From a virus, in IMG/VR virus record IMGVR_UViG_3300031977_002507, positions 1-21,974 of that record: a stretch of 21,974 nt of DNA; one strand, 5' to 3'. Made by a program: the position numbers and the translations under genes. The notes below the pieces were generated by a model. It was not told where the DNA came from. It ran no database searches and saw only the letters and a program-made list of their open reading frames with translations. Positions 1-19,503 of the stretch are shown piece after piece. How positions within the stretch are numbered: position 1 is the stretch's first letter; the number at the start of each line of letters is the position of its first letter.

Positions 1-1339
1 TAGTAACCCCAGTGCAATTTAAACTGTCAATCTTTATTTCTTTTAAATACCTACAACCATTAAAGCATTCAGTGATAGCGGTAACGCTATCGACGCTAGA
101 CAAATGAACCCTTTGAAGATGAGTACAATACGCAAACGTAGAAGAAAGATTCGTAAGGTTGGGCGTGTTTAAATACGGCAATCTTTTTAAGAGAGTACAT
201 GAATGGAAAGCGCTGCTCATACTAGTAGCGCCAGAAGTATCTAAACCAGCAACTCTTCTTAAATTAAAACAATAATAAAAACAATAATTAAAATTAGTGA
301 TGTGCGCAGTAGAGCCTAAAAATCTAACAACGGCCATGTTTTCACAACGATTAAAGACGCTCTCAAAATTCGTTGCATTTGGAGCATAAGGCATGATGCC
401 CTTTTTTAACCCCTTGTTTCCAGAAAAACACGACGCGACATTTGTAGCGCTTGAAAAATTATAGGCAGGAAATTCAGAAACTCCCGTATTACTAAAAGCT
501 GCGCCAAAATCAGTTCCAGAAGAAGTATCCCAGTTTGGAGCCGTTCTTAAAGATGTGCAATAATAGAGAGCGTAAAGAAAATCCGTGACGTTAGATGTAT
601 CTAAATCAGGAATAGATATCAAAGAAGAGCAAGACGCAAACGCTCTATTTAAACTTGTAAGCGTTCCATTGTCCTGTATAGAAAGATCAACCAAAGAGTA
701 AGAACCCTCGAACCTCATGCTAAATAAATTATTGTTCTCTATTGTCACCTTGTGTAAATATCTGGCTATAGAATTTCTTTGAAGCGATCTACCGACATGA
801 AAATGTTTTAAATTACTCCAGTTTACATAAAACTCTGTCCATTTTGAATAAGGGGTCGCATACATATCTCTATTATCATATGTAGCTTCTGCCATTCCAT
901 TAAAATAAATTCCAGACAGGTCTGCATTAGAAGAACTATTTAAAGTCACCTTTACGATTGCCTGTCTACAACTTCTTCCGAAAACTGTAGTTTGTGTATT
1001 AGAATTAATATCAGAATAATTATATTTATGGAGCGCCCTAATACCGCTTTGATTTGGGGCGGTAAAAGTTTCTACATTTCCATCACCCCAGTCAACATCA
1101 ACAGATCCGCTAGAGTCATTATTATTACCAAAATAAAATGTTATAATAACTTCTTCTTGATCTGTATCATAAACAGGAAGAATGCCATAAATAACATCGT
1201 CGCCGTTCGGGTTGGCTGGAGGGTCTAACCAAGTAGAGGGCTTTACCCAGTCCTTTCTGGCTCTTTGATCAGGAACCATCGACTCATAATTCTCGGTTAC
1301 AGCCGTGGCGTTTACTTCTGTATTACCTAACTTAAACAT
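1..1339 (-). CDS. BspA/DUF285-type leucine-rich-repeat adhesin, third tandem copy, C-terminus outside window
   Basis: Partial gene: the ATG is at 1339 and the frame stays open to base 1, so at least 446 residues are visible and the C-terminus is missing. A GGGGATAA Shine-Dalgarno lies just before the start, in the 8-base gap after the preceding paralogue. The N-terminus (MFKLGNTEV) matches its two neighbours, as does the WVKP..WLDPP segment near residues 31-41. A PKD-like DWGDG motif sits at 83-87. From about residue 200 it becomes leucine-rich repeats of about 23 residues of the BspA/DUF285 type, with DTSNVT, MF/AF..C..L and IPDLDTS elements. Such repeats usually mediate adhesion. After a tail fibre in a phage late operon, a receptor-binding or virion-decorating role is the best inference. 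No signal peptide is seen, which fits a virion protein better than a secreted one. Confidence 0.85.
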   Translation of the reverse strand, partial: MFKLGNTEVNATAVTENYESMVPDQRARKDWVKPSTWLDPPANPNGDDVIYGILPVYDTDQEEVIITFYFGNNNDSSGSVDVDWGDGNVETFTAPNQSGIRALHKYNYSDINSNTQTTVFGRSCRQAIVKVTLNSSSNADLSGIYFNGMAEATYDNRDMYATPYSKWTEFYVNWSNLKHFHVGRSLQRNSIARYLHKVTIENNNLFSMRFEGSYSLVDLSIQDNGTLTSLNRAFASCSSLISIPDLDTSNVTDFLYALYYCTSLRTAPNWDTSSGTDFGAAFSNTGVSEFPAYNFSSATNVASCFSGNKGLKKGIMPYAPNATNFESVFNRCENMAVVRFLGSTAHITNFNYCFYYCFNLRRVAGLDTSGATSMSSAFHSCTLLKRLPYLNTPNLTNLSSTFAYCTHLQRVHLSSVDSVTAITECFNGCRYLKEIKIDSLNCTGVT

Positions 1340-1347
1340 TTTATCCC

Positions 1348-3444
1348 CTATGTTGTGACTGTCCAGCCCTTGGAAGTGGCTATTGCTATAGTGTCTGCGT
1401 GAAGCTGTGGGGTTCCGTAATTTAATCTCACATCAATAGTTTTTCCAACAACTCCACTAGCAAGATTAGTGAATATATGCTCCAAAGCGCCACTACTTAA
1501 AAAACAATCATAATATCCTATGTTGCAACTTACATTACGAATATCTGACCATCTCAAACTTCTGCAAGAAGAAAAAGCTCCAGTCAAATCCTCAACGCCA
1601 GAAGCATTCCAGTCTCCAACCAAAGTGAGATTTGGGCAATTATTAAATAGATTAGGCAAATAATCACCAGAAGAAAATTCTACATTTTCAACTTCTTGTA
1701 ACCCATACATAGTAACAAATGGCGAACCATTGGTGTGTGTCATTCCAGAAGTTGTTACGTTTGACATTTTTTTTAGGTAATTAGTTTCCCAGAACATTCT
1801 AAATCCCCTAGTCGGGGTAGAATAATAGTCTTGACAAAGACCGGAAGGAAACTCTTCAAGCCTATAGCATCTATAAAAACACTGACTGGCATCAGCAGCC
1901 TTAACGTTTCCAAACTTAAACCCGCCGACTCTTCTAAGCTGATTACAACTGATAAAAAAACTTTGATAATCATTCGCATTGGAAAGGTCGTAGACGGGCG
2001 CCTCTTCAAGAGAGTGACACCCTCCAAAAAAATAAGCCACCCAGTAGGCTTTAGACAAGTTTATTTCTGGAGCCTGCCTTAAAGAAAAGCAGTTACTAAA
2101 CATACTATACATGCCAGAAGCCCAAGTCTCGTCTGGATAATCTATTTTAATTGATTTAGCATTATAAAGATTATGAAACGCCTCTCTGAAGTTACCATTT
2201 GTATTGTAAGGGGCCGTTGGCATACTGCGAACATCACCTATATGCAAATCTTCTAGCTGATGGCAGCTTTGTGCAAATCTCCTCATGTTTGTACAATTTG
2301 GAAGGTCGATCCTTGGCATCCTTTTAAGGTTTATACATGAAGCAAAAGTACCATCTGCCGTTGTGACATTTGTAAATTGATCAAAAATATTATTTGGCAA
2401 AGATTGCAAACTATAACACGAAGCAAAAGTGCTATTTATGTTTGTCGCGCTTGAAAAATCTAGACCAGAAGGGACTGTTTTAATTTTAAACATAGCGCTA
2501 AAACAGGAAGTAAGGTCTGTGCCGTTTGAATAATCAAGCCGAGGTATCTCGTCTAAATAAGAATAAAGTAAAAAGCTATTGAAATTGGTTACATTTGAAG
2601 TATCAATATTTGGTATTGTTTTAAGAGATCTGGTGTTATTGAACATGCTAGATACATTAGTAGCAGAAGAAGTATCCAAATCAGGAACAGACTGTAAAGA
2701 ATAACAATACGAAAACATGCCAGCAAAAGATGTAACATTAGAGGTGTCAGCATGAGGCATTTCAAAAACTCTTAGTTTAGTCATCGCATGACATAACGAG
2801 CTACATGTGGTAAATTCTCCGGTGGCGTTAATCACCAGTCTTTCTATTTCTCGCGGATATCCATATTGATGTGTATATAAATACAACTCTCTTAAATTTG
2901 GACACTCTATATGAACGTCTAATATGGGCATAGACTGGTAGTTATTTGAATAAGACACCCTTTGAGCATTATTAAATTCTGACAAATTTATTTGCTCTAT
3001 GCCACTTACACTTCCGTCTAGCACTATAAGAGCCTGCCTGCAAGTCATTCCGTTTATCTTGGCTTCACTTTCCGCAGGAAGATCATCGTAGTTATAAACA
3101 TGAACCTGCGGAGCAATATAATCAACACTTCTCCAGTCAGTAGACGTTCCGCTTGCAATGCTGGTTGTTCCGTCACCCCAATCTATTGTAGTATAAGTTT
3201 TATATCCAGAAGCCTGAAAGCCCCTAGTGTAAATTTGTGCAGAAATATCTGTAGACCCACTTGGGAAAAATGCAAGTATTGCAGCTTTATCTTCCCCAGA
3301 AGCAAATGTTGGCATGTCAAGCCATCCACTAGGGCGAACCCACGGACCCTCTAGTTTATATTCTGGTGTACCAATAGGATCGTCATACGGTTCAATAACC
3401 GATATCTTACCTATACTGTTGTTTCCTACTTTTATAACTGCCAT
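1348..3444 (-). CDS. BspA/DUF285-type leucine-rich-repeat adhesin, second tandem copy (698 aa)
   Basis: Complete 698-residue protein. Residues 1-20 (MAVIKVGNNSIGKISVIEP) and about 35-63 (WVRPSGWLDMP, ASGEDKAA, FFPSG) are shared with the 705-aa neighbour. A PKD-like DWGDG lies at 88-92. About residues 180-640 are DUF285/BspA repeats built on DTSNVT, MF..C.SL and VPDLDTS units. The protein ends in LHADTIAIATSKGWTVTT, identical to the end of its neighbour. GGTGATAAA precedes the ATG, and the gap to the upstream gene is 9 bases, so expression is probably coupled. Family knowledge: these repeats form a curved solenoid used for surface binding. Position after the fibre gene supports a receptor-binding or tail-tip role; this is inferred, not shown. 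A moron that alters the host surface is possible but lacks a secretion signal. Confidence 0.88.
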   Translation of the reverse strand: MAVIKVGNNSIGKISVIEPYDDPIGTPEYKLEGPWVRPSGWLDMPTFASGEDKAAILAFFPSGSTDISAQIYTRGFQASGYKTYTTIDWGDGTTSIASGTSTDWRSVDYIAPQVHVYNYDDLPAESEAKINGMTCRQALIVLDGSVSGIEQINLSEFNNAQRVSYSNNYQSMPILDVHIECPNLRELYLYTHQYGYPREIERLVINATGEFTTCSSLCHAMTKLRVFEMPHADTSNVTSFAGMFSYCYSLQSVPDLDTSSATNVSSMFNNTRSLKTIPNIDTSNVTNFNSFLLYSYLDEIPRLDYSNGTDLTSCFSAMFKIKTVPSGLDFSSATNINSTFASCYSLQSLPNNIFDQFTNVTTADGTFASCINLKRMPRIDLPNCTNMRRFAQSCHQLEDLHIGDVRSMPTAPYNTNGNFREAFHNLYNAKSIKIDYPDETWASGMYSMFSNCFSLRQAPEINLSKAYWVAYFFGGCHSLEEAPVYDLSNANDYQSFFISCNQLRRVGGFKFGNVKAADASQCFYRCYRLEEFPSGLCQDYYSTPTRGFRMFWETNYLKKMSNVTTSGMTHTNGSPFVTMYGLQEVENVEFSSGDYLPNLFNNCPNLTLVGDWNASGVEDLTGAFSSCRSLRWSDIRNVSCNIGYYDCFLSSGALEHIFTNLASGVVGKTIDVRLNYGTPQLHADTIAIATSKGWTVTT

Positions 3445-3453
3445 TTTATCACC

Positions 3454-5571
3454 TTATGTTGTAACTGTCCAGCCTTTAGAGGTAGCTATCGCAATTGTGT
3501 CAGCGTGTAATTCGTAAGTTCCGGGCGTGTATCTGATATCAATTGTTTTATTCGCGGTTCCAAGCCAATTAAAAATATCCTCGATAGCGCCACTAGAAAG
3601 ACACGTTCTGTAGTATCCTATGTCTGATGTTACACCAGAAAGAGTTCCGACTTCTAAGTTGTAGCAGTTATTAAAAAATCCTGCCATTGTGTAAGCGCCA
3701 GACGCCTCAACAAAAGGAACCCTTTTTAAATTTGGATTACCAGCAAAAGTGCTATTAAGGTTTGCATCTGGGGGAATTACTAAATCTGTAATGACATCAT
3801 ACCTAATGCCGAATTGACCAGCCTGAGACGACGAATTTAAGGAAGATAACATATTGCTAAAATCACAGGCGCCAGACTGTGACAAGGCTGGCATACCGTT
3901 AAACATTTGATACCCGTACCAAACGCGAGACAAATCTAAATCTGGTAATTTCTCAAGATTGAAGCAAGAGTTAAACATTCTTTGAGCAGATATATTTCCA
4001 TTGCCTCCTGCCGACATATCAATAGGCCCAACTTCTTTTAAATTATAACACAAATAAAATAGATTGTTAAAGTCTGTAGAACTGTAAGAGTTTATTCCAG
4101 CGAACTTTTTAAGGTTGTAGCAGTGTTGAAAAATAGCCCCTGTTCGCTCACATCCAGAAGCATTTATGTAACCGGCATATTCTAGTTTCTTACAACTAGA
4201 GAACATGCTATTAAAACCATAAATATGAGATGTGTATAATGGTTTTTCTGAAAACTCAACCTTACGAACATCGGAACCAGCAAATAATCCATCCATACGA
4301 CCGTTTTGCGATCCAGAGGTTCCAATATCCTCTATGTAAATAGACCCCTTTACTCCCGCACAGTTAGAAAACGCGCTGCCGTCTGTAGTATTAAGATACG
4401 GCATATAAACACGACCATCTGGGAATATATTGGTTTTTAGTTTAGGGGTTTCGTTAAAACCTCTTCTAATGTCTGTAACAGAAGAAAAATCTATTCTGGG
4501 CATAAATTCTAGATTGTCAGAATTCATAAAAGTTTCATTAAATGACACGTTTAATGATGTGTCCCAGTTTCCGGTAATCCTTTTAAGTTTTTTGCAAAAC
4601 CGAAACATGGCAGCCATATTCTGGTATCCGGTGTCGCCAGATGGCACGTCTATATGGATCTCTTCAAAATTAGAACCGGAAAACATAGAACTAAAACCAC
4701 TATATCTATTATTAGATGGGTTATGGTATACTTTATCAAAGTTGTATTTACCCGAAGGGAAAATTTTAACGTTTTTAAAATTAATAAACATTCCATTACA
4801 CATCTCAACACCAGAAGTTTCAAAATCTGGAAGGTAATCTAGCGCAGAGTTAGAAAACATGGATCTAGTGCCATGCAACTCATTTGTAGTATGTATTTCA
4901 ACCTCTTTGAGTCTTGGTGTCTCACTAAACATGCTATTTAGATAGCGAACTTTTGGTCCGTATATTCTCGCCTTTTCTAGTAGCGGAAATCTTTCACCGT
5001 AAGTATCTTGACTAACACCGAGGTACTCACCACTTGGCGCATTAATATTATATTCTAGAACATATAAATCTGGATATTGCCTTTGGGTGCCGGTAATATA
5101 TCTCCAGTTTAAGCTAGAAATACCGCTCGCACCAGCATCTACAACAACGAGAGTTTGCCTAAACCTCATCCCCCTAAATTCAAACTCTGTTGCTGGATCT
5201 AATGAAGAGAAATCATATACATGCTCAACAGTCGCACCGCCTTGACCATTGTGAAGATTTTGATATTCGGAATTTCCATCACCCCAATCCACAGTAAAAT
5301 CAGTTAAGAAATAATTTGTATTTGTTGTGCTAGGATCGTCGGCACCTCTACAGTTAATCTTAACAAAATTACTTAATAAATTTTCACCGCTGGGTATCGC
5401 CCACAAAAACGCCGCCTTATGCTCTCCAGATCCAATCGTTGGCATATCTAACCAGTGCGCAGGACGAACCCATTCTCCCGTTGGATAAACGTCTTCTACA
5501 ACGGGAACCTCTGGTGGTTCAATAATAGATATCTTACCTATATTAGTATTACCAAACTTTAAATTTGCCAT
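3454..5571 (-). CDS. BspA/DUF285-type leucine-rich-repeat adhesin, first tandem copy (705 aa)
   Basis: Complete 705-residue protein and first of three tandem paralogues. It opens MANLKFGNTNIGKISIIEPP, has WVRPAHWLDMP and SGEHKAAFLWAIPSG at about 34-62, DWGDG at 95-99 (PKD-like), and DUF285/BspA-type repeats from about 180 to 650. In this copy the repeats are more degenerate than in the second (for example MFSSCKKLEYAGYINASG). The C-terminus is LHADTIAIATSKGWTVTT. Its ATG overlaps the stop of the 960-aa fibre gene as TAATG, so translation is probably coupled to the fibre. That coupling is the best local argument that the repeat proteins are made with, and perhaps assembled with, the fibre. The exact role (receptor binding, accessory fibre, chaperone) cannot be read from sequence. 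Confidence 0.88.
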   Translation of the reverse strand: MANLKFGNTNIGKISIIEPPEVPVVEDVYPTGEWVRPAHWLDMPTIGSGEHKAAFLWAIPSGENLLSNFVKINCRGADDPSTTNTNYFLTDFTVDWGDGNSEYQNLHNGQGGATVEHVYDFSSLDPATEFEFRGMRFRQTLVVVDAGASGISSLNWRYITGTQRQYPDLYVLEYNINAPSGEYLGVSQDTYGERFPLLEKARIYGPKVRYLNSMFSETPRLKEVEIHTTNELHGTRSMFSNSALDYLPDFETSGVEMCNGMFINFKNVKIFPSGKYNFDKVYHNPSNNRYSGFSSMFSGSNFEEIHIDVPSGDTGYQNMAAMFRFCKKLKRITGNWDTSLNVSFNETFMNSDNLEFMPRIDFSSVTDIRRGFNETPKLKTNIFPDGRVYMPYLNTTDGSAFSNCAGVKGSIYIEDIGTSGSQNGRMDGLFAGSDVRKVEFSEKPLYTSHIYGFNSMFSSCKKLEYAGYINASGCERTGAIFQHCYNLKKFAGINSYSSTDFNNLFYLCYNLKEVGPIDMSAGGNGNISAQRMFNSCFNLEKLPDLDLSRVWYGYQMFNGMPALSQSGACDFSNMLSSLNSSSQAGQFGIRYDVITDLVIPPDANLNSTFAGNPNLKRVPFVEASGAYTMAGFFNNCYNLEVGTLSGVTSDIGYYRTCLSSGAIEDIFNWLGTANKTIDIRYTPGTYELHADTIAIATSKGWTVTT

Positions 5572-8453
5572 TATAGTATAATCCAGTTAGAGTTAGTTGA
5601 CTGTACTTTAATGGACTGATATTGAGTACTCATCTCAAATGAAAGTTGTCCATCTAGTGTTTCGCCACCTACACCGCTAACAATGACATTACCAGTACTT
5701 GTATTTTTAATGTGATACATAAGACCACCGTTACCAACTGCTGTTGGCAAAGTCAAGACGAGACCAGCTGTGGCGTTTATAGTATAATCTGTAGATAAGA
5801 TAGTTGTGTTAGAAGAAACCTCTCTATAGGGCTGAACTACTGGACCCTCTACGTCTGGATCAGTAATAATATAAAAGGTCGCCGCGTCAGGTGTGATAGC
5901 GTCGTATTCTGCCTGCGTGAGCTTCTCGATGTGGTAAACCTGTTCGCTGGTTATAACCCTCTTGCCGCTAGCTATAATATTGCCACTAAGCGCAACATCG
6001 GCCCCGTTATATGTTAAAGTGTTATCACCAGTAACAGAGCCAGTATTATCAAAGTAAAGTATACCACTTGCTTCGCCGCTTATGGTATTTCCAGAGGCAT
6101 ATGCAGCAATACCGGACACGGCAACAATATCTTCACTTAAACTATCTACCTCACCTTGGAAATAACCAGAAACAGCAGCATCTTCACTGGCGTCTGTTAT
6201 GATATAAAAAGTAGCGGAGTCTGGTGTTAATGCGTCATATTCTGCCTGAGTAAGCTGTTTAATGTGAAATATTTCATCACTAGTTATAACGCGCTCACCA
6301 GTAGCAAATATTGTGCCATCAAGAGTTATACTCTGACCATCATATATTAATGTATTATTTCCAGTGATTGCGCCATCGTCACCAAAGAATGGTATACCGC
6401 TTGGATCTCCATTTACCGTATTACCAGACGCATAAGCAGCAATACCAGAAACAGCCACAATGTCTGTAGCGTTCTGAGACACCAAAGGCTGAAAATATCC
6501 AGAGATAGATGGAGCATCTGTAATTATATAAAAAGTGGCCGAATCAGGAGTTAAGGCGTCGTACTCAGCCTGAGTCAACTGAACAAGATGATGTATGTCT
6601 GGACTTGTTACGACTCTTTCGCCGCTAGCGTCGATATAGCCACCAACAGTTACGTTAGCTCCATCAAATGTAAACGAAGGATCGCCGGTCGCGGAACCAG
6701 CGTTATCGAAATACAGCACCCCGCTTGGGTTGCCCGTAACACCCTTGCCAGAGGCATATGTCGCAATACCCGACACATAATCCATTTGCAAGAGGGTAGA
6801 GAATGTACTTTCTGACCACCCGCTAACGGCGGTATCGCCAGCGTCGGAATGGGTGCCAGCCCAGCCGCTAACAGCTGTTATCTCAGCGTCGGCATCATCA
6901 ACTCTAGTTTCAAAATAACCAGAAGTAGACGATAGATCATTAACATTGTCTGTTATTTGTGATTGTAAATTACCACTGGTACTGGATATTAAACTTGTTA
7001 AAGTATTGGCTATGTTTGCGTCATCATTAAGAGCGGCAGCAATTTCATTGAGAGTATCAAGCGTGGTTGGTGCGCCATCTACAATCATGGCATAAACATC
7101 ACCACTTATACTAGATAGATCAACATCAAAACTACCACCAGCACTATTGAAGTATGTCAAAATGGCATTTGAAAATGTGAAGTGATCACCACTAGGTGTT
7201 AGCAGTCCAGATACAGACGCTATATCTAGAATGTTTTCATTTATTGAGTCTCGTAAGGCCCCAGACGCGGTGGCGATATCTGTCGTATTTGCATTTATAC
7301 TGTCACGAAGCGCACCAGATGCGGTCACGATATCTGCGGCATTTGTATTGATACTATTTCTTAATGCGCCAGAAGCGGTAGCTATATCGTCAGTATTTTG
7401 ATCTATTAAAGCGCCAGTAGCTCCCGGCAAAAAGTCAGCAACACCAATCAAACCAGAAACTGCGGCTATGTCGCTTTCGTTTTGTATGGCTTGACCGCTA
7501 GCATAGGTAGCAATACCAGAAACATAATCAACATCTAGATTTGTTTGTGTAAAATTACTACTGGTCCAACCAGAAACGCTAGACAGATCAGAAACAACAG
7601 AATCAATACCAACCTGAGTCCAGCCGGAAACATTAGCAAGATCGGAAACAACTGCATCAACACCAGCCTGAGTCCAACCGGACACGCTGGCTAGGTCACT
7701 GGAAGCGGAGTCTAGGCCGGTCTGAGTCCAGCCAGAAAGAGAACCAATACTCGCATCAGCCCATCCAGAGGTGGCAGAGAGGTCGGCAACCACGGCATCT
7801 AGGCCAGATTGAGTCCAACCAGAAACATTTGCTAGATCAGAGACAACAGAATCTACACCAGCCTGAGTCCAGCCAGATACGCTAGCAAGATCGCTAACAA
7901 CACCATCTATTCCAACCTGAGTCCAGCCAGAAACAGAGGACAGGTCATTTGCAGAGTCAGTAAACTTTGAGTCAGCCCAGCCAGAAACAGCAGTAGCGTT
8001 GTGATCCTGTTCGTCAACATAAGCCTGCGCCCAACCAGAAACAGAAGATATCTCACTAGACAGCTCTGCTACATTGGCGATAGTCCAGCCAGAAAGAGCT
8101 ATTAATTCATCTTGATTTGAAGATACAACACCACTAAGATATACAAAATCATCTTTAAACACAGCCTGAGAAGCTGGGTATACTATAGATACAGTACCGC
8201 TACCACCAAGAGTGATTTTATTTCCATTATTAGAACTTGCGAGTACGGTATTTCTTTCTAGATTATGAGAACCGTAAGTACCAATACCTACTTCCCATTT
8301 ATCATTTTCTTCTATAACGTAATATGTGGTGTCACCAGCACTTAAAGCGTCGTCGAATCTCTGAAAGCCATTATACGGGCCTATAAAAGATACACCACCA
8401 ATACCACTGGTAGTGGTATACTCCTTTACCCTGTCTGCGACCTTTAGAGGCAT
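5571..8453 (-). CDS. Long repetitive tail fibre / receptor-binding protein (960 aa)
   Basis: The N-terminus (MPLKVADRVKEYTTTSG, later DTTYYVIEENDKWEVGIGTY and RNTVLASS) resembles a head region common in phage fibre or appendage proteins. Residues about 120-330 are tandem VSGWTQ.G.D.VVSDLA units, with a spacing of 18 residues. Three ASGALRDSIN..T.DI units follow with a similar period. About residues 570-890 hold three copies of a roughly 105-residue module, each with VSGIA.YASG, TGERV or SGERV, and LTQAEYDALTPDSATFYI or a close variant. The C-terminal domain (DYTINATAGLVLTLPTA, MYHIKNTSTGNVIVSG, ending NWIIL) resembles fibre tips seen in many phages. The ATG directly follows the stop of the 73-aa gene, with GGAGAGATAG before it. 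Product class is well supported; its position on the particle is not. Confidence 0.85.
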   Translation of the reverse strand: MPLKVADRVKEYTTTSGIGGVSFIGPYNGFQRFDDALSAGDTTYYVIEENDKWEVGIGTYGSHNLERNTVLASSNNGNKITLGGSGTVSIVYPASQAVFKDDFVYLSGVVSSNQDELIALSGWTIANVAELSSEISSVSGWAQAYVDEQDHNATAVSGWADSKFTDSANDLSSVSGWTQVGIDGVVSDLASVSGWTQAGVDSVVSDLANVSGWTQSGLDAVVADLSATSGWADASIGSLSGWTQTGLDSASSDLASVSGWTQAGVDAVVSDLANVSGWTQVGIDSVVSDLSSVSGWTSSNFTQTNLDVDYVSGIATYASGQAIQNESDIAAVSGLIGVADFLPGATGALIDQNTDDIATASGALRNSINTNAADIVTASGALRDSINANTTDIATASGALRDSINENILDIASVSGLLTPSGDHFTFSNAILTYFNSAGGSFDVDLSSISGDVYAMIVDGAPTTLDTLNEIAAALNDDANIANTLTSLISSTSGNLQSQITDNVNDLSSTSGYFETRVDDADAEITAVSGWAGTHSDAGDTAVSGWSESTFSTLLQMDYVSGIATYASGKGVTGNPSGVLYFDNAGSATGDPSFTFDGANVTVGGYIDASGERVVTSPDIHHLVQLTQAEYDALTPDSATFYIITDAPSISGYFQPLVSQNATDIVAVSGIAAYASGNTVNGDPSGIPFFGDDGAITGNNTLIYDGQSITLDGTIFATGERVITSDEIFHIKQLTQAEYDALTPDSATFYIITDASEDAAVSGYFQGEVDSLSEDIVAVSGIAAYASGNTISGEASGILYFDNTGSVTGDNTLTYNGADVALSGNIIASGKRVITSEQVYHIEKLTQAEYDAITPDAATFYIITDPDVEGPVVQPYREVSSNTTILSTDYTINATAGLVLTLPTAVGNGGLMYHIKNTSTGNVIVSGVGGETLDGQLSFEMSTQYQSIKVQSTNSNWIIL

Positions 8454-8718: not shown

Positions 8719-8747
8719 AAAAGAAAACCGTCCCAAACGGGACGGCT
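8719..8747 (-). terminator. Rho-independent terminator after the major capsid gene
   Basis: On the minus strand, CCGTCCC and GGGACGG form a perfect 7-bp GC-rich stem around a GTTT loop (8728-8745), extended by A-T pairs and followed at once by TTTTCTTTTT. It lies about 30 bases past the capsid stop codon. On the plus strand the downstream side is not T-rich, so it is directional. It separates the head genes from the fibre genes. Confidence 0.9.
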
Positions 8748-8776
8748 TTCCAAATTTTCTTCTGTTAAGCTCAGTT

Positions 8777-9781
8777 TTAGAACGAGCCAGCGAGAACTCT
8801 ACGGTTGTCGAGGACACCAAAGCCCATTTCTGCAAATCCGTAGTAGCCCTGTCTTTGATGACGGTGAAGAGTTTCGTCTTCAAAGATTTCGACTTCGCGC
8901 TTGACAGGCATAACGAAGCTGTCGCTAGCACCTTGGTCGAGACCGATAACGAGTTCAACGTCGCTACCTTGAAGCGATCCACCAAGATCACTAGTGAAGT
9001 ACGACTGATACTCTTGATTGTCGCCAAACTCGAACAAGTCGTGCAAGTTGACACCAAAGATTCTGGTGATTGCAGGACCATCGTCGCCAGCAACGTAGAT
9101 TTCTCTACGGCTAACTTCGTCAAGCTGATCAACACCCCAGTTGCGGATGTCTTCGATAGCTTCTGGCGAGCAGTAAAGGTCGGTCAAACGACCGGGAGCG
9201 GTAACACTGTTACCACCACCATTACGACGCATGACGGTTTTCATCAAGCTTACAAGACGCTTAGTGAACTGACCGGCAGCTGCATCAGCATCGTAAACCA
9301 AGATGTTACGGTCTACAGCAGCAGCCAAAAGGGTGTGCCAGCCGTCGTCGTTGATTTTCTTCACGAATGAAGACTCAAGAACCTGCATCGCGCGAGCAAC
9401 AACATTCCAGTTGGCTTCACGAGCGTACTTGAGCAAGAAGTCAATCGAGCTAGAAACGCCATAGGTGTTGACCATGACGTAATCACCTTCAACGTGACGC
9501 TCAGGAATACGTCCGTTTCCGGGATTAGTGTAAGCAATATGATCGACTTCGCTTCCGGGTGACAAGAGGTCCAATGGGAACTCTGGAGTCGCGCCGGGTT
9601 CGAGAGGCATTGTCTCGAAAATCGAGGTAACAACATCGCCAAAAAGAACGCCCTTACGAAGAGGAAGCTCAAGAGCTTTAGCGATTTCGCGCTGTGCTTC
9701 GATAGCAACAGCTTTATCAGAAGCGCCAGAACGCTTTAGCAGTTCAATGAATTCTGCTGATGGTCTTTCTTTGATCGACAT
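8777..9781 (-). CDS. Major capsid protein (334 aa)
   Basis: This 334-residue protein lies where the major capsid gene is expected: after terminase, portal, protease-scaffold and a small capsid accessory gene. A near-perfect Shine-Dalgarno (AAAGGAGAT) precedes the ATG, and a strong terminator follows, both fitting very high expression. The sequence has an alpha-helical start (SAEFIELLKRSG, AIEAQREIAKAL), a central helical stretch (WNVVARAMQVLESSFVKKINDDGW) and a late YCSPEAIEDIRNW segment. This layout is compatible with HK97-fold capsid proteins, including the P-domain helix pattern. I cannot cite a diagnostic motif, so the fold is inferred from context, length and style. Codon choice looks more GC-rich and regular than in the adhesin genes, consistent with high expression. 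Confidence 0.85.
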   Translation of the reverse strand: MSIKERPSAEFIELLKRSGASDKAVAIEAQREIAKALELPLRKGVLFGDVVTSIFETMPLEPGATPEFPLDLLSPGSEVDHIAYTNPGNGRIPERHVEGDYVMVNTYGVSSSIDFLLKYAREANWNVVARAMQVLESSFVKKINDDGWHTLLAAAVDRNILVYDADAAAGQFTKRLVSLMKTVMRRNGGGNSVTAPGRLTDLYCSPEAIEDIRNWGVDQLDEVSRREIYVAGDDGPAITRIFGVNLHDLFEFGDNQEYQSYFTSDLGGSLQGSDVELVIGLDQGASDSFVMPVKREVEIFEDETLHRHQRQGYYGFAEMGFGVLDNRRVLAGSF

Positions 9782-11816: not shown

Positions 11817-13895
11817 CTAAAAATCGCTCAATTCAGCAAAGACAGTAGAGTAAATCATCTTCATCTCATTACTATTTGGCTGCCTATTGTTGGTATCAAC
11901 AAACTGTTCAACCTTCTCTGAAGCGAAAGAAGTAAACTCCTTTGGGGGGTTTATTTGAGCCTGTAATAGATTTTTAATTACAGCTTCATCAATTTCCATA
12001 AATGGTTTTAATCCAGTAAGAATACATAGCTTTAGGTGTTCTAGCTGATCTACTTCTGACTTAGTGAGGCTTCTGATGTTCTTCTTATCAAAGTGGGCTA
12101 AAGCTATTGGGGACAAAACCTCAGAGATTTTTGCCTGAGCGTCCATAGCCCAAAGCATAGCCACGGTAGTATCGGAACTCTTTGGTAGAACTCTTTTCTG
12201 CTTTCTTTTCTCTGTATCCCTAGAAAACATAGGTCTTCCAGCCTCTTGAATTGGTTGATTCTCTTCTTGTTTTGGTTGCGGCTTAGGTTCTTCTACAACC
12301 TCTGGTTGGCTGTATGGAATACCGTATTTTTCAAAGTATTCTTCATTGTCAACCAAGTCTTTAGTAATACCAATTTTAGCAACATCGTGGGCATGTTGAG
12401 GATTATGATATGGGCTAGCCTTTTGTGGAGCGTAAGCCTCGGTATCTCTATCTCTAACCTCTCTTTTAACCCTAACCTTCTCGATAGATGGTATTTCTCT
12501 GAATCTTTCCAGAAGTGTTTCTTGTGAGATAATATCTCTATCTGCAAGATCGAGCAACAACTTCTTCTGGGCGGCTTCATCAGACAATACAATAGAGTCG
12601 AAATGAATTTCTGCTGGATATCTAAAACCCATAGCCTTTTGTACTATTGCTATTTCTTTTCTCCAGAAACTAGCCAATATCTCTCTACCATACTCAAGTC
12701 GCTCAACCAGAGTCTTGAGAGAAACGTAATTATTGGTATAACCACCACCGCCAGCGGCGCCGGTAAGGGTAGGAGGTATCCCCAAACCGGCATAGATACT
12801 CGTGAGAACCGGCTGATATTTTTCAGATCCTAAGAATCTATACACTTGAGATTGACTTTCAGTGAATTTCAGTTCCGGTCCCCAAACCATATCCATAGTT
12901 CCACCGCCGACGTTGCTGGCTAATATGTCTCTCAGCTTATTAATAACGGCTTTTGTTGGTATAATCTTATGATCTAAGTCACCAACGGTCCATAGTCGGA
13001 CATTAGAGATAGCGCCATCAAGAGCTGCCATATCTGCTAATTTCATTTTTTCTAACATGATAATATCGTCAAGAATGGAACTAATCATAGGATCAGACCA
13101 AACCATCCAATCATCTTTTTTGTAAAAGTAAAAATCTACTTTATTGGGATCAAGAGGAATAGTTCTTTCGCCATTCTTTAGTCTATTATATAGGTCTTGA
13201 GGTAGAGACTTTTTATTATTTGCAGTCATGAGGGCTTGATGTGAGTTATGTGATAGCTTCATCACGTACTCAGGCTTTCCAAGCTGCACGCCACCAACAG
13301 CATCAATACTCAAAGGATTAAGAAAATCATAACCCCAAGGTATTTCTCTAGACTTAAAGTTGATATCCTCTATTTTTGTATCTGCGGCAATTGCGCTTTT
13401 TAGCGCCCTTTCTTGCTTTCTGTTGATTTTAGCCGTGCTTCTTCTTGTTATTACATTACCAGTTCTGTAAAGGTAGTTCAAGAATCTTTCTGACCTGTCT
13501 GTGCCGCCAACCTCTTGGAACCATTTTCTATAAAACTTTTCTATTGTCTTGTTTGGGTGAACCAGCACAAGCCCCTGACTAGCAAAATCGCTCATCAAGT
13601 CAATAACATTTCTGATTATGCCAACACGACTATAAGCCTGCATACACTGTGCTATTAGTCTTTTCTGTCTGGTGGCAACAGCCTCTCCGGGACGGAAAGC
13701 ATTATAGTCACTTCTGTTAAAACTAGTCCTTACCGAACGGTTAGGCTCTATATCTATGTAGCTGGTTCTTCTGCCATAAGAGTGAGCAGAAGCCTTCTGG
13801 ATACCCTCATATGCCTCAATATTGTCAGCTGTAGACCTGTATGCGTCTTGCTTTTGAGACTCGTTATCCCATGTTAGATATAGATCGTCAGACAT
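11817..13895 (-). CDS. Portal protein (692 aa)
   Basis: The portal forms the ring at one capsid vertex through which DNA is pumped. The call rests on position directly after large terminase, length, and portal-like segments: RIGIIRNVIDLM-type helix near residues 90-105 (here SRVGIIRNVIDLMSDFASQG), DDIIMLEKMKLADMAALDG near 275-295, and GLGIPPTLTGAAGGGGYTN followed by LKTLVERLEYGREILASFWRK near 370-410. The last is the usual portal pattern of a glycine-rich loop before a long helix. The C-terminal 150 residues are polar and Pro/Gln-rich (PQPKQEENQP). The Shine-Dalgarno is weak (GGGAAAA), fitting the modest amount of portal needed. A 54-base gap to terminase carries a TGTGTA element and an inverted repeat. 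Confidence 0.88.
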   Translation of the reverse strand: MSDDLYLTWDNESQKQDAYRSTADNIEAYEGIQKASAHSYGRRTSYIDIEPNRSVRTSFNRSDYNAFRPGEAVATRQKRLIAQCMQAYSRVGIIRNVIDLMSDFASQGLVLVHPNKTIEKFYRKWFQEVGGTDRSERFLNYLYRTGNVITRRSTAKINRKQERALKSAIAADTKIEDINFKSREIPWGYDFLNPLSIDAVGGVQLGKPEYVMKLSHNSHQALMTANNKKSLPQDLYNRLKNGERTIPLDPNKVDFYFYKKDDWMVWSDPMISSILDDIIMLEKMKLADMAALDGAISNVRLWTVGDLDHKIIPTKAVINKLRDILASNVGGGTMDMVWGPELKFTESQSQVYRFLGSEKYQPVLTSIYAGLGIPPTLTGAAGGGGYTNNYVSLKTLVERLEYGREILASFWRKEIAIVQKAMGFRYPAEIHFDSIVLSDEAAQKKLLLDLADRDIISQETLLERFREIPSIEKVRVKREVRDRDTEAYAPQKASPYHNPQHAHDVAKIGITKDLVDNEEYFEKYGIPYSQPEVVEEPKPQPKQEENQPIQEAGRPMFSRDTEKRKQKRVLPKSSDTTVAMLWAMDAQAKISEVLSPIALAHFDKKNIRSLTKSEVDQLEHLKLCILTGLKPFMEIDEAVIKNLLQAQINPPKEFTSFASEKVEQFVDTNNRQPNSNEMKMIYSTVFAELSDF

Positions 13896-13924
13896 TTAAT
13901 TTTCCCAATAGTATTGTTAATAGA

Positions 13925-13939
13925 AATGGTAATACCATT
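13925..13939. repeat. Short inverted repeat between large terminase and portal
   Basis: AATGGTA and TACCATT form a perfect 7-bp inverted repeat around one base. It sits between the TGTGTA element and the portal start. With a one-base centre it suits a dimeric DNA-binding protein better than an RNA hairpin, although a shortened stem with a wider loop could form. It lacks a T-tract, so it is not a convincing terminator. Confidence 0.4.
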
Positions 13940-13948
13940 ATTACACAA
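13936..13948 (-). promoter_or_regulatory. Putative late promoter element before the portal gene
   Basis: Minus-strand TTGTGTAATAATG lies about 40 bases before the portal ATG at 13895 and overlaps the edge of an inverted repeat. It is one of four TGTGTA elements found in the larger gaps of the late block. Function is inferred from recurrence and placement. Confidence 0.42.
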
Positions 13949-13949
13949 T

Positions 13950-15932
13950 TTAATAGATATCTTGTATTTTATCGGCAAACCAAGCTGGTCCATTATAGAG
14001 TTTGCCGGAATTACCAAACCTAGAAGCGTTCTCCTGAGCAAATCCGCCAACCTCGATCTCCTGAATTTTCTCTACGCTAGAGTAGTGTCTGGCAGACATG
14101 TTAGCCATAATCAAAGCAGAATACCTATCTTTTCTAAGTCTGGTCTTTTTACCGGCACCAAGTTTAACCTCTGGAGTATCCCAACGCTCTCTACCGCTTG
14201 ATGTTTGCGTCATGACAATCATAGAAAGCTCATCTTTTAGCTCTTCTATTTCCATAACACAATCTTCGAGAGTGTCGTACTTTCTTCCAGAAACCTTGTC
14301 TTGCTCTATTGAAAGACCAATACTAGCGGTGTCAAAGAATGGGAATAAAACACACTTGTCTTCAAAGTCTTTTCTAAGTCCGTGATTAGCTTCTGCTAAC
14401 CAGTCAGCCTTAGCGAATTGACATAATTTAAGGATATGTAGACCGGAGTGATAGTCTGTGTCTTTTTCTTTTTCTTCTATCGTAGGCCAGATTTGAACCT
14501 CGCCTTCTCCAATCTTATCCCTATCCTGAAGCGCTTCCACAACCGCTATACCACCACCTTGGGCGTCAATGGCGATCTCAACACAAGGAAAAGCCTTCAT
14601 TAGCTGTCTAATTTTCTTAGCACAGTAAGAATAGAAATCGTCTTCCGTTACTATTTTCGATTTCAACTTCTCTTTGTGTTGCTTTCTGGTCGTCGTCCAC
14701 GAATGGACTATTCTTCTATGATCGCCATTTAACTCCAAAACCACTATACTGAAATTATCAACCTCGGAAGCAGGATCGACACCAAAAATATATTTTTTAT
14801 TTGGATCGCCTTTCAGCAGGGCTTCAAAACACACGTCTCCAGAAGGCAGTGTTATTGGCTTCATCTGAGACGTTGTGCATGATTCGATTAGGCTCCTTTT
14901 AAAGAACCCTTGACTATCTGTTGTAAATACCGCACCGTATTCCATCTGATATATTCCAGAATGAACCGTAGCCTTGGCTCTGGCTATCTGGCCGCTATCC
15001 ATAAAACCATCTGGCAGCCTATCTACGGGCATCCTGATAACAGAATACTCTCTCCAATCAAAATCAGCAGGGACGGCTCCACCAAAAACCTCTTGGAGCT
15101 TAAATTCGTCCCCTCCGCTAGCTACTATAGCGTGATATCTCTTCCAATACTCAGCAAAATGATTAAAATCATAATAGGCAGTACCTGAAAGGATAATTTG
15201 GTTTGATTTCATTGCGCCGGTGTCCGACTCGTCTGGACTACTAATGGGTATGCCTAATTCTTTAGCTTTCTTTTCTCTCGCTTTTTGCTTGACCTTTTCT
15301 ATAGGAGAAGCGGCAACGGCAGCAAAACCAGCAACAACGTTTTCAAAAATATCTCTAGGAATAGAGGCAAATTCGTCAGCAATGATATCATTAGCACGCT
15401 GACCTCTAATCTTGCTACCGTCACCGAGCGGGAGGCAGGTAATAGTGCTTTGACCGATGTGCATAACACACCTATCCACATCTCTTCTAGGTCCACTATT
15501 ACTTGCACACAAATCCCTCAAAATAGGCGCGTTCTTCCAAATAGTATCCATGTACTCAAAAAGAACTTTAGACTGCCTAAAGGCCGCACCAACAACAATT
15601 ATCTTTCTTCTAGGCATAAACAAGGCGCGTAGTAATGGGTAAACAGAAAGGATGAAAGACTTACCCATACCACGACTACCAACGAGCATTGGGAATTTTC
15701 TATTCCACATCTCGTATAACAATAAAGACTGAAATGGAGACAACTCAACATTTAGTATGTACTTACAAGCAAAAGAGAAATACTCTGGACGCATCATTAG
15801 CCACGCAATTCTCTCTAGAAGTTTTTCATTATCAGAATCCTGCATGACGAAATCCATAGGGTTAAATAGCTTAGATTCATCTACGCTAATCCCAAGCCAC
15901 GCATCTTCTATTTGCTTTGTCTGATCTATCAT
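13950..15932 (-). CDS. terL: Terminase large subunit: packaging ATPase and nuclease (660 aa)
   Basis: This motor enzyme packages DNA into the prohead using ATP and cuts it at genome ends. The ATPase part shows a PFQ adenine-binding segment at 66-68, Walker A GSRGMGKS at 85-92, Walker B IIADEF at 183-188 (Asp186, Glu187) and a coupling SGT at 249-251. The nuclease part shows the RNase H-like acidic motifs: IFGVDPASE with Asp386, EIAIDAQGGG with Asp456, and a late RLRKDRYSAL Asp near residue 610. All key residues are present, so the enzyme should be intact. Length is normal for the family. The ATG overlaps the ClpP-like stop as ATGA, so translation is coupled. The portal gene follows. Confidence 0.97.
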   Translation of the reverse strand: MIDQTKQIEDAWLGISVDESKLFNPMDFVMQDSDNEKLLERIAWLMMRPEYFSFACKYILNVELSPFQSLLLYEMWNRKFPMLVGSRGMGKSFILSVYPLLRALFMPRRKIIVVGAAFRQSKVLFEYMDTIWKNAPILRDLCASNSGPRRDVDRCVMHIGQSTITCLPLGDGSKIRGQRANDIIADEFASIPRDIFENVVAGFAAVAASPIEKVKQKAREKKAKELGIPISSPDESDTGAMKSNQIILSGTAYYDFNHFAEYWKRYHAIVASGGDEFKLQEVFGGAVPADFDWREYSVIRMPVDRLPDGFMDSGQIARAKATVHSGIYQMEYGAVFTTDSQGFFKRSLIESCTTSQMKPITLPSGDVCFEALLKGDPNKKYIFGVDPASEVDNFSIVVLELNGDHRRIVHSWTTTRKQHKEKLKSKIVTEDDFYSYCAKKIRQLMKAFPCVEIAIDAQGGGIAVVEALQDRDKIGEGEVQIWPTIEEKEKDTDYHSGLHILKLCQFAKADWLAEANHGLRKDFEDKCVLFPFFDTASIGLSIEQDKVSGRKYDTLEDCVMEIEELKDELSMIVMTQTSSGRERWDTPEVKLGAGKKTRLRKDRYSALIMANMSARHYSSVEKIQEIEVGGFAQENASRFGNSGKLYNGPAWFADKIQDIY

Positions 15933-16567
15933 TTGTAAATACCGTCCGCGAAACCATAGTACACGGCTTCTTCAGCGGACATATACCAGTCTCCATTATT
16001 TAATTTTCTTTTTATATACGCCTTGGTCTTTGAAAGCGTATATTCTGACTCTTTAAAAAACTTTCCAGTCTTGTGGCATTTTTCCGCATATATATCAACC
16101 ATCTGCTGCGCCGCACTTTTTTCAAACGCTGCAAGGTTCTGAGAGCTTAGGTAGTGACCGCTTATCTCGCTACTGCCCCAATGCACCATGAAGGCGGAAC
16201 TGGGAGTTAGGAGCCGTCTGGAGGCGGCCTGTATAATAATAGTACCCATAGAGCATAACTGCCCATAACCAATAAAGCTTGTTTTACACCGGGAATTTCT
16301 AATAGCGTCATATATACCCATTCCTGAATACCAGCAACCACCAACCGTTTGCATGTGTATGGTGATTGGCTCTTTGTTAAGGTTTTTAAGAATATTTATA
16401 TTTTTAATGAACATTTGGAGCATTCTGTGGTCAACACCAGCCGACTCGCCAGAATCATCAAACTCATTTATATATATTTCCCTATTCTTAACATCTACTC
16501 CATAGCCGTGGATTTCTCCAACAATATCTCTATTGAGCGTCATTATCTGTCCCATTAAAAAGTTCAT
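15929..16567 (-). CDS. ClpP-like serine protease (212 aa)
   Basis: ClpP-fold peptidase with a full catalytic set: nucleophile Ser106 in GQLCSMGT, His129 in AFMVHWGS and Asp193 in NGDWYMSAEEA. The oxyanion-strand TVGGCWYSGMGIYDAI (74-89) corresponds to NSPGG...IYD of ClpP, and MSAEEAVYYGFADGI closes the domain as in ClpP. Three in-frame ATGs (16567, 16555, 16543) are possible; 16567 has AAGAGA upstream and 16543 a weak GGGACA, so the start is uncertain by 8 residues. It overlaps the ERCC4 nuclease gene upstream and terminase downstream. ClpP-fold proteins serve as head proteases in lambda-like phages, but a separate prohead protease is present here, so it may instead degrade or modify other proteins. 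Confidence 0.88.
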   Translation of the reverse strand: MNFLMGQIMTLNRDIVGEIHGYGVDVKNREIYINEFDDSGESAGVDHRMLQMFIKNINILKNLNKEPITIHMQTVGGCWYSGMGIYDAIRNSRCKTSFIGYGQLCSMGTIIIQAASRRLLTPSSAFMVHWGSSEISGHYLSSQNLAAFEKSAAQQMVDIYAEKCHKTGKFFKESEYTLSKTKAYIKRKLNNGDWYMSAEEAVYYGFADGIYK

Positions 16568-17099
16568 TAAGTCTCTTAAAGATACTATTGCAAATTATAA
16601 AAGCATTATACTTATTATCGCAAAAAATAACATTTATATCTCGCCTTATAGATATTTCCATAAGAGACTTCATAAGATATTTACCACTAAGTTTAGTCTG
16701 GTCAACAATATCAAATCTTTTTCCTACAGGCTTCTTTATCTGGCCGCTTTTGTACATCTCATAATTCTTCTTGTCGTTTTCGTCAAGTAGACTCATGGGA
16801 TAGTTAATAACGTCAGAAGCAGAAAACTCAAGCAACAGATAACGAAAGTGGAAATCCTTCATGCGCTCCATTTCGTTAAAAAATGCCTCTTTTTTCCTTC
16901 CTAGGTTCATACTAATCTCAGATACCGAAGCTTTTCTTTCGATGCACACGATATCCTCATACCCCTTGAGGGTATAGTCGCCAGTATGAAGCGTTCCTAT
17001 TTCCATACCATCGCACTTATCGTATTCACTAAAGAACCATCCATCCTGCTCTCTAGTGTCTTTTATAACTGTGTACTTTGGTATTTGTTTTCTTGGCAT
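16530..17099 (-). CDS. ERCC4-fold (XPF/Mus81-type) nuclease (189 aa)
   Basis: The N-terminal third carries the ERCC4 nuclease signature: VIKDTREQ (Asp14, Glu17), TGDYTL (Asp41) and CIERKAS (Glu54, Arg55, Lys56), the GDY...ERK metal-binding core of XPF/Mus81 enzymes. The rest is helical and Lys-rich with no clear second domain; an HhH tandem is not obvious. Such nucleases cut branched or flapped DNA. Within a packaging operon it may clear branches from replicating concatemers, a job done by endonuclease VII in T4. A second resolvase-like gene lies on the other strand of this window. It starts 2 bases after the stop of the 90-aa gene and overlaps the ClpP-like gene. Confidence 0.85.
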   Translation of the reverse strand: MPRKQIPKYTVIKDTREQDGWFFSEYDKCDGMEIGTLHTGDYTLKGYEDIVCIERKASVSEISMNLGRKKEAFFNEMERMKDFHFRYLLLEFSASDVINYPMSLLDENDKKNYEMYKSGQIKKPVGKRFDIVDQTKLSGKYLMKSLMEISIRRDINVIFCDNKYNAFIICNSIFKRLNELFNGTDNDAQ

Positions 17100-17101
17100 A
17101 T

Positions 17102-17374
17102 TTATCGCTTAGTAAAGGATAACACTCCGCCCCTGTAGGCTGGCCTATTTGCTGGGGACGTTTTCTTCATTTGCAGATATACTTCATCAAAGACCCTAGC
17201 GCCCAACTCTACTTCATAGCTTTCGCCCGGCTCAAGGGCCTCTAGAGCGCTCAGTACGCTTTCCGCAGAAAGTTCTGGCTCAGACCGCACGGGTTCTGGA
17301 GCGGGGTCTATAACTTCTTCTGGCTGATCTGGCTCGCTATCACTAGCCCAAGAGGAAAATCTATCGAAACTCAT
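17102..17374 (-). CDS. Acidic Pro/Glu-rich protein of unknown function (90 aa)
   Basis: I do not recognise it. The first half is acidic and Pro/Glu/Ser-rich (SEPDQPEEVIDPAPEPVRSE), probably disordered. The second half has a helix-like ESVLSALEALEPGESY and a basic end (MKKTSPANRPAYRGG, then FTKR). It overlaps the HNH gene upstream as ATGA and ends 2 bases before the ERCC4 nuclease start, so it is embedded in a coupled set of nuclease genes. A small regulatory or bridging partner of one of them is possible but unsupported. Confidence 0.65.
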   Translation of the reverse strand: MSFDRFSSWASDSEPDQPEEVIDPAPEPVRSEPELSAESVLSALEALEPGESYEVELGARVFDEVYLQMKKTSPANRPAYRGGVLSFTKR

Positions 17375-17646
17375 TTTTTATTTCTCCTAACTATCTCGTT
17401 GAAATATGAAACGTAATGCGACTCTTTGCCCGTAACAGACTTGTGGCACCCCCTACATAGGGTAACTCCGTTGTCTGTGTCATGGCGCAGGGAACTCGCT
17501 GAACTCCATTTTATTATATGATGAACGTTGAGATAAGCATTCTTACCTCTTTTATTACACATTTGACAGGTATATTTGTCTCGTTTTAGTACATCAAGAC
17601 GAAACTGCTTGTAAACCGGATCTCCGTAGTCTCGCCTTTTCGACAT
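17371..17646 (-). CDS. HNH endonuclease (91 aa)
   Basis: Small stand-alone HNH nuclease. Visible motifs are a zinc knuckle CQMC (Cys27, Cys30), the catalytic VHHIIKWS (His42, His43), Asn59 in DNGVTLC, and CRGCH (Cys64, Cys67, His68). The N-terminal YGDPVYKQFR is typical of short phage HNH proteins, supporting the ATG at 17646 even though this makes it overlap the upstream gene by 53 bases. HNH proteins beside terminases often help cleave cos or pac DNA during packaging, which is the likely role here. A homing endonuclease is the alternative, but the protein is short and well integrated in the operon. Confidence 0.9.
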   Translation of the reverse strand: MSKRRDYGDPVYKQFRLDVLKRDKYTCQMCNKRGKNAYLNVHHIIKWSSASSLRHDTDNGVTLCRGCHKSVTGKESHYVSYFNEIVRRNKK

Positions 17647-18700: not shown

Positions 18701-19503
18701 TACTTATCCTCATCTTTAATTAATGTTTCTGGTGTTAGGAAGGGCTGGTCGATGTTGCCGTCCTCATATTGTGTGTAATCTGAAAGCCGTTCTTTCTCTC
18801 TTTCAGTGGCGAGTCGCATCTTTTCCATCTCTATTCCTATTTTAGACCTGAATTCTGAACTGGTTGCTATTTGTTTCACAAGCGATGCAAATGTTTGTTT
18901 CGAGTCCTCAATAGCCTTGATTCGCTGTTCTCGCGTGCCTTTGAGGTCTTTGAGCATGGTCGCTTTTCGAGCCTGAAGATCTTTGTAATCTTTACTCAGA
19001 GTCTCCTGTGAGGCTCTCAGCACTGCGATCTGACGCTCCAAATTCATTATGTAGTCCACATCTCGCTGATCCTTGTCTCGCGCCTTTTCATTCTGAACAA
19101 GACGCTCGTTAAGCGCTATTTCTTCTTGACCTTCGTGTTGGGACCGTAGAATCCGATTCATGAGGATTTCAAGCTTGATCGTATCTATTATCTGCATTTC
19201 TTCGGTATGAAACACATCATCTTTGAACTGGCTCCACATTTTTTTGAAATGAAATTGAAACATTTCTAATTCTTCTGAAGAAAATTGGTTGGATAGCTCT
19301 TTGTAGTATGGTTTCGTCTTTAATTCATTTGCTACAGCCGCCTCTTTCTTTTGTGCTGAAGAAAATCCGACCCGTTTGGCAATCCAGTCCCTAACAGACT
19401 CAGGGTCTCGTGTTAGAGTCTCTGCAATGGCTTCTGGAGAAAGAACCTCGCAGTTCTGCTCGATAAATTGCATTTCCTCATTGGAGAATCTACCCTTCTT
19501 CAT
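18700..19503 (-). CDS. Probable terminase small subunit (267 aa)
   Basis: Residues 1-45 (RFSNEEMQFIEQN, SPEAIAETL, RDPESVRDWIAKR) form a helix-turn-helix-like unit suited to DNA recognition. Residues about 60-120 (KPYYKELSNQF, EELEMFQFHFKKMWSQFKDD, TEEMQIIDTIKLEILMNRIL) resemble a segment found in phage small-terminase proteins encoded near large terminases. About 125-240 is a long charged coiled coil, plausible for oligomer formation. Such proteins bind genome recognition sites and load the large subunit. The ATG has GGAG about 9 bases upstream and overlaps the sigma-like gene by 14 bases. A transcription regulator is the main alternative. Confidence 0.68.
   Translation of the reverse strand: MKKGRFSNEEMQFIEQNCEVLSPEAIAETLTRDPESVRDWIAKRVGFSSAQKKEAAVANELKTKPYYKELSNQFSSEELEMFQFHFKKMWSQFKDDVFHTEEMQIIDTIKLEILMNRILRSQHEGQEEIALNERLVQNEKARDKDQRDVDYIMNLERQIAVLRASQETLSKDYKDLQARKATMLKDLKGTREQRIKAIEDSKQTFASLVKQIATSSEFRSKIGIEMEKMRLATEREKERLSDYTQYEDGNIDQPFLTPETLIKDEDK

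Follow-up and report, generated by a model that had tools for sequence, protein, structure and literature searches.

Tandem leucine-rich repeat proteins behind a viral tail fibre as putative exchangeable host-recognition tips

Described systems and the LRR genes of the window

The host range of phages is set by receptor-binding proteins, most of which are unrecognisable in uncultured phages. In T-even phages, gp38 combines a constant N-terminal attachment part with variable receptor regions, and specificity travels with the variable part (PMC12892980). Here, we analysed a 21,974-bp fragment of an uncultured virus (IMG/VR record IMGVR_UViG_3300031977_002507; this whole stretch is referred to as the window), in which three genes for leucine-rich repeat (LRR) proteins follow a tail fibre gene. 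In the reading that we propose, with a probability of roughly 0.7, each LRR protein is a fibre-tip adhesin with a gene of its own, and recombination at the conserved ends of these genes swaps the variable solenoids. Such exchangeable LRR host-recognition tips look like a new design. The fibre and LRR genes are placed as follows.

5571-8453, minus strand: tail fibre, 960 amino acids (aa), with the LRR-paired knob at its C-terminus (three Pfam Phage_tail_C matches; PHROG tail protein)
5571-6080, minus strand: C-terminal region of the fibre, the knob proper being the last ~93 aa (alignment)
3454-5571, minus strand: LRR1, 705 aa, DUF285 leucine-rich-repeat protein (Pfam DUF285, E 3.4e-8)
1348-3444, minus strand: LRR2, 698 aa (Pfam DUF285, E 4.9e-19; AlphaFold2 model)
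2-1339, minus strand: LRR3, incomplete at the edge of the window, 446 aa or more (Pfam DUF285, E 2e-14; a relative in contig L005 is 75% identical, complete and ~691-701 aa long)

As with gp38 of T2, S16 and PP01, the LRR protein is the product of a separate gene adjoining the fibre gene: the LRR1 ATG overlaps the fibre stop TAA as TAATG, and an LRR gene comes next after the knob in 15 of 17 contigs described below. Gaps of 9 and 8 bp precede LRR2 and LRR3, with GGTGATAAAATG and GGGGATAAAATG ahead of the respective starts, and a ribosome-binding-site-like stretch lies upstream of the start in the inspected LRR copies. Unlike gp38, which is about 260 aa in size, the LRR proteins here measure about 700 aa, are predicted to form an LRR solenoid without a polyglycine-II sandwich or glycine-rich motifs (glycine content 5.6-8.9%, longest run GG), and occur as tandem paralogues, up to six of them. 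Since the gp38 fold and glycine motifs fail, the LRR proteins are not classed as gp38; the best reading, by analogy, is that they would work like T-even gp38 while differing from it.

A second likeness is to the BspA-type, DUF285 and PARCEL surface proteins, whose repeats are known to spread horizontally (PMC2996958). The curated cut-off of DUF285 (PF03382; 25 bits) is passed by LRR1 (33.7), LRR2 (68.7) and LRR3 (53.8). LRR3 also exceeds the cut-offs of LRR_5 (PF13306, BspA-type; 37.9 versus 27.7 bits) and of the PARCEL model TIGR02167 (31.0 versus 30 bits); for LRR1 and LRR2 no LRR_5 match is listed, and TIGR02167 gives 17 bits for LRR2 and none for LRR1. Unlike BspA-type surface proteins, LRR1-3 have their own N-terminal tag, are linked to a phage fibre and lack a signal or anchor: no signal or membrane segment was found in them (maximal 19-residue Kyte-Doolittle mean 1.02, with no value above 0.63 over residues 1-50), and no LPxTG anchor in the LRR proteins. 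PARCEL repeats are encoded by dyad-symmetric DNA. A search for inverted repeats (14 bp or longer, within 200 bp), which differs from the MEME palindrome test of PMC2996958, found none in the DNA, and palindromic PARCEL DNA was dropped for this reason.

An earlier note on this DNA, made from the sequence alone, had described three paralogues of about 700 aa that lack secretion signals, are coupled to the fibre gene and fill a quarter of the window. The coupling, the order, the lack of signals and the share (25%) all hold, and so do the sizes of LRR1 and LRR2, but LRR3 runs off the window at 446 aa, and the copy number of three is a minimum, complete blocks in other contigs holding 1, 3, 3 and 6 copies.

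DUF285 proteins are also present in other phages. Database entries from uncultured Caudovirales ('Bacterial surface protein 26-residue repeat') have the same fold, and most phage DUF285 proteins in the databases carry no proposed function; PARCEL repeats were called undescribed in phages in 2020 (PMC7765460). Two such proteins share a tail-module position with the window LRRs, namely gp35 of the Klebsiella P2-type phage ST16-OXA48phi5.4, which unites Tail_P2_I (baseplate protein I), Big_2 and BspA/DUF285 repeats in one protein, and S-CBWM1 gp104 (PKD and DUF285), encoded between genes annotated as tail fibres. In Zoogloea prophages, a single LRR gene follows J and a collar/collagen fibre, and particles of the algal virus AaV contain two DUF285 proteins (PMC7507832). 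Because of these cases, a role in the virion tail is likely, by analogy, for the LRR proteins. No description of an LRR/DUF285 phage tail adhesin, or of a tandem array with exchanged bodies, was found in the open-access literature, subscription papers being outside this scope; with the proposed role, the DUF285/PARCEL repeats would gain a testable phage function.

The LRR proteins could also be non-virion products that act on or in the host, as a phage-excluding surface coat, a decoy or an intracellular binder. Bacterial and protist BspA/DUF285 proteins are indeed often membrane-targeted or found at the cell surface (PMC2996958), but the missing secretion signal and membrane segment in LRR1-3, the fixed link to the tail fibre and the fusion of DUF285 repeats to a baseplate protein in another phage make this quite improbable.

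Lamprey variable lymphocyte receptors (VLRs) are alike in their LRR solenoids, constant caps and variable surface, and the LRR sequences match VLRs. This is an analogy only: VLRs are assembled by somatic gene conversion in the animal, whereas the window LRRs are exchanged between phage genomes.

Fibre knob, N-terminal tags and moving bodies

A search with the knob region only gave 17 contigs in which a related knob forms the C-terminus of its open reading frame (ORF). An LRR protein is the next gene in 15 of them (two near-duplicate pairs included), and this holds for three phages whose knob is only 40-52% identical. When one knob-adjacent LRR protein per contig was taken and near-duplicates were left out, the start motif K-x-G...I-G/N was present in 13/13 of these proteins versus 2/25 related LRR proteins in other contexts (p = 2e-8, with a motif regex written after viewing the sequences). 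The pattern is consistent with an LRR N-terminus that is matched to its partner fibre.

The first 22 residues of an LRR protein are called its tag here; the tags and two places where contig L108 departs from the window are listed below.

5506-5571, minus strand: LRR1 tag, 22 codons, MANLKFGNTNIGKISIIEPPEV (aa identity to L113_2 91%, with the same codon at 18/19 of the shared residues)
3379-3444, minus strand: LRR2 tag, MAVIKVGNNSIGKISVIEPYDD (95-100% identical in five other contigs)
1274-1339, minus strand: LRR3 tag, MFKLGNTEVNATAVTENY... (sequence comparison)
3376-3382, minus strand: departure of L108 from the window sequence, at codon ~22 of LRR2 (alignment)
4921-5012, minus strand: 92-bp LRR1 tract that contains 11 of the 15 L108-window differences (0/20,000 simulations as clustered)

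Tags and bodies have separate histories. Identity between LRR bodies is about 30-40% across the six contigs that share the LRR2 tag. This tag (NSIGK) requires 6 changes for 7 rows when placed on a tree of 23 bodies, against a shuffled mean of 6.1, and a single clade of NSIGK-tagged bodies was rejected by the approximately unbiased test (p-AU 4e-49). Other tags are tied more closely to their bodies (8 changes in all versus 14.2 when shuffled), and the LRR3 tag shows 71% likeness to its nearest relative, tags of other types reaching 57% at most. Tags hold one order along the block across genomes, and none occurs twice in a genome.

The likeness of the tags extends to their DNA. Identical tag residues mostly have the same codon (90-100%); for the same pairs the figure is ~50% in the bodies and in the capsid genes. 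The 13 bases upstream of the gene usually match too between same-tag pairs. Exact DNA blocks of 78-123 bp span most tag junctions, including those of phages with capsids 62-70% identical; the block shared with L113 across the LRR1 tag junction measures 118 bp.

Exchange can be followed in individual contigs. L108 matches the window over 8,961 bp at 99.83%, without differences in fibre and capsid, and then has a different LRR2 body. In the copy L114_2, a near-exact L115_2 sequence through gap and tag gives way to L115_3 (96% aa) from the WVRP linker; this L114/L115 mosaic and the body tree are independent of the L108 switch. The clustered differences in the 92-bp tract are mostly silent, with three codons changing the residue, as would be expected of a short recombination tract; no donor was found when sought. 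Recombination is preferred over hypermutation by a diversity-generating retroelement (Mtd-like) because the changes are mostly synonymous, with no dedicated reverse transcriptase or template-repeat search having been made. No site-specific recombinase was noticed among the ORFs near the array, where no profile search was made.

The earlier note had seen paralogues whose arrays diverged while their ends were kept, and had suggested a bank of interchangeable binders. The C-terminal 70 aa of LRR1 and LRR2 are 60% identical, against low pairwise identity within the repeats, but the LRR3 tag differs and its C-terminal end lies outside the window. The description as fibre-coupled proteins with variable arrays and constant ends stands, and the variable part is exchanged between phages; a silent bank within one genome is not what we find. 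Since the copies are intact, as ORFs throughout with the one exception of the frameshifted contig L191, and since exchange is seen between phages, we take the copies to be a displayed set exchanged between phages.

Predicted fold, variable registers and proposed mechanism

LRR2 was modelled with AlphaFold2, and its parts are the following.

2875-3354, minus strand: LRR2 N-terminal beta domain with DWGDG, residues 31-190 (AlphaFold2, predicted local distance difference test (pLDDT) 87.8, predicted template modelling score (pTM) 0.84, ten strands)
1525-2874, minus strand: LRR2 solenoid, about residues 191-640 (Z 21.5 to the BspA-like 4fs7; variable registers)
1351-1524, minus strand: LRR2 C-terminal cap, ending KGWTVTT (sequence comparison)

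In the model (mean pLDDT 88.6, pTM 0.82), residues 1-30 are predicted to be disordered (pLDDT about 30), followed by the beta domain, the solenoid and a helical cap. The match of the solenoid to the Bacteroides protein 4fs7 covers 354 aligned residues with a root-mean-square deviation of 3.8, and the chain as a whole resembles phage entries in the databases under the name 26-residue repeat protein, with a template modelling score of 0.68 for the best. The label PKD-like, given earlier to the DWGDG segment, rests on the motif: DWGDG is present in LRR1, LRR2 and LRR3, but Pfam PKD has no match in them. A PKD fold for the N-terminal domain was set aside, Foldseek having found no significant match to the LRR2 beta domain in the PDB. 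S-CBWM1 gp104, which has the same layout, does match Pfam PKD.

The most variable registers of the 24-residue repeat, as chosen in discovery pairs, were 1, 2, 4, 5, 9, 19, 21 and 22. In two held-out pairs, the ratio of nonsynonymous to synonymous substitution rates (dN/dS) was 0.94 at these eight registers (dN over pooled dS 1.06, 95% interval 0.66-1.68) versus 0.15-0.16 (0.08-0.26) at the remaining ones, and the observed contrast was reached by 0/5,000 random eight-register sets. The earlier expectation that exposed positions vary fastest is thus borne out as judged by repeat register, not by solvent exposure, with dN/dS of about 1 at 8/24 positions. Such a pattern would suit a conserved scaffold whose contact surface changes fast. 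Positive selection across whole LRR regions is not claimed, because dN/dS averaged over them is 0.2-0.4. The analysis flags the residues likeliest to contact the host and the natural joints of body exchange.

Variable positions would also suit changing glycans. PKD/Big_2-type domains often accompany glycan-binding surface proteins, and the LRR proteins may be carried in the virion and bind particles, mucus-like glycans or dissolved polymers, like Ig-like capsid decorations. We consider this unlikely: the LRR genes lie at the fibre end beside a dedicated knob, the usual receptor-binding place, and not among the capsid genes.

If the LRR proteins are fibre-tip adhesins, they would be translated with the fibre, and the short flexible N-terminal tag would attach each to the fibre knob or to a neighbouring tip protein. 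Behind the tag would come the beta domain, then the DUF285 solenoid, which would touch the surface of the bacterium with its variable register set, and last a C-terminal cap that stays constant. Display of every copy is probable. Homologous recombination between phages would bring in new bodies. One recombination arm may be the conserved 3' end of an LRR gene with the short gap and the tag of the next gene, and the other the conserved linker or C-terminal sequence, so that tag and slot would be retained while the binding body is replaced. It is possible, but doubtful, that the genes form an ordered multi-specific array, in which position-specific tags would address the paralogues to their own fibre-tip places and bodies would circulate in a shared pool across very different backbones, paralleling the animal VLRs.

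Several points weigh against fibre-tip adhesins with exchanged bodies. A dN/dS of about 1 is compatible with relaxed constraint and with diversifying selection alike. The association of knob and LRR may in part be due to linkage and common ancestry; a single group accounts for ten of the 13 knob-adjacent LRR proteins and the motif was devised post hoc, so that the p-value overstates the case. Finally, the L108 switch lies 0.8 kb from the contig end, where the assembler may have joined two sequences through ~110 bp that they share. Extended to all cases, this would make cassette swapping an artefact in which different genomes were joined through shared tag DNA, as the exact blocks of up to 123 bp at junctions might allow. 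Such an explanation is very improbable, given that tags and bodies are mixed in seven contigs and at interior positions, that the L114_2 frame stays open across its mosaic join, and that L016/L115 and L191/L193, from different samples, agree over their shared LRR1 parts, the L191 frameshift aside.

The block in related contigs and its surroundings

The fibre knob, tagged LRR proteins and a small DGW protein make up a recognisable module that occurs in contigs of several kinds. L005 and L113 have six LRR genes, one behind the long fibre and five more behind a 160-aa mini-fibre. The L005 mini-fibre (5237-5719) begins with the short stretch MTYNPIPTLASGDAIF, carries a tail-tip motif and shares 91% identity with the window in its knob; the terminase of this phage is only 49% identical. 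Three LRR genes are present in L115 and in L193. In L211, L215, L216 and L219, one LRR gene is directly followed by the small (G)FYK...DGW protein, which also closes the LRR block in L113 and L115 and ends it in very different phages at these loci.

L005 16254-16541, L211 5651-5926, L215 4657-4896: small (G)FYK...DGW protein
L216 5130-5525, L219 4728-5111, L197 9910-10311: small (G)FYK...DGW protein, further loci

This protein had no Pfam match where tested and resembles a Zoogloea prophage protein (34% over 53 aa); it is a candidate fibre-assembly factor. Small products behind fibre genes are often chaperones, and the LRR proteins themselves could be fibre-assembly chaperones or maturation factors. 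Their ~700 aa, their 3-6 divergent copies and their fast-evolving positions are unlike a chaperone, and the small block-closing protein is the better candidate, which leaves this the least probable of the alternatives.

The fibre-LRR module is accessory, since L009 and L116, with terminases 95% identical to that of the window, have a different set of fibre genes, and an LRR gene is missing from that place. In L116 (reverse complement, 13719-18789), the fibre ORFs end in different knobs, the whole tip module being exchanged. In L191 (reverse complement, 14923-16916), LRR1 is frameshifted by a ~67-bp deletion relative to the otherwise ~100% identical L193, which means a damaged copy or a mistake in assembly; the fibres of L191 and L193 show a small indel difference. 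The window's fibre shaft (about 6950-8100, minus strand) contains near-tandem VSGWTQxGxDxVVSDL repeats. The cyanobacterial genome contigs L200 (7863-9869) and L199 also encode related DUF285 proteins, with no obvious phage context around them.

On the minus strand of the window, the order is terminase, portal, scaffold/protease-like gene, small decoration-like gene, capsid gene, fibre and LRR genes; the names scaffold/protease and decoration are our reading from gene position. Neither the capsid (MCP) nor the portal protein matched any of 50,697 phage isolate records, which places the virus in an uncultured lineage; terL is only 21-31% identical to isolates. IMG/VR contains many relatives of the terminase (at least 591), and from the kind of relatives found the group is apparently marine.

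8722-8751, minus strand: terminator-like hairpin 3' of the capsid gene and upstream of the fibre-LRR unit (consensus match only)
8777-9781, minus strand: capsid gene (unmatched among the phage records though the terminase lineage is abundant in IMG/VR)
11817-13895, minus strand: portal gene (unmatched among the same records)

A GDP-mannose 4,6-dehydratase-like gene (17594-18700, minus strand), a sugar-nucleotide enzyme in the tail/head cluster, lies within the packaging/structural region and is kept by most terminase relatives. Directly before the terminase is a gene (15929-16567, minus strand) for a ClpP-like serine protease, so named from a sequence impression, which is found in many relatives and replaced or missing in others.

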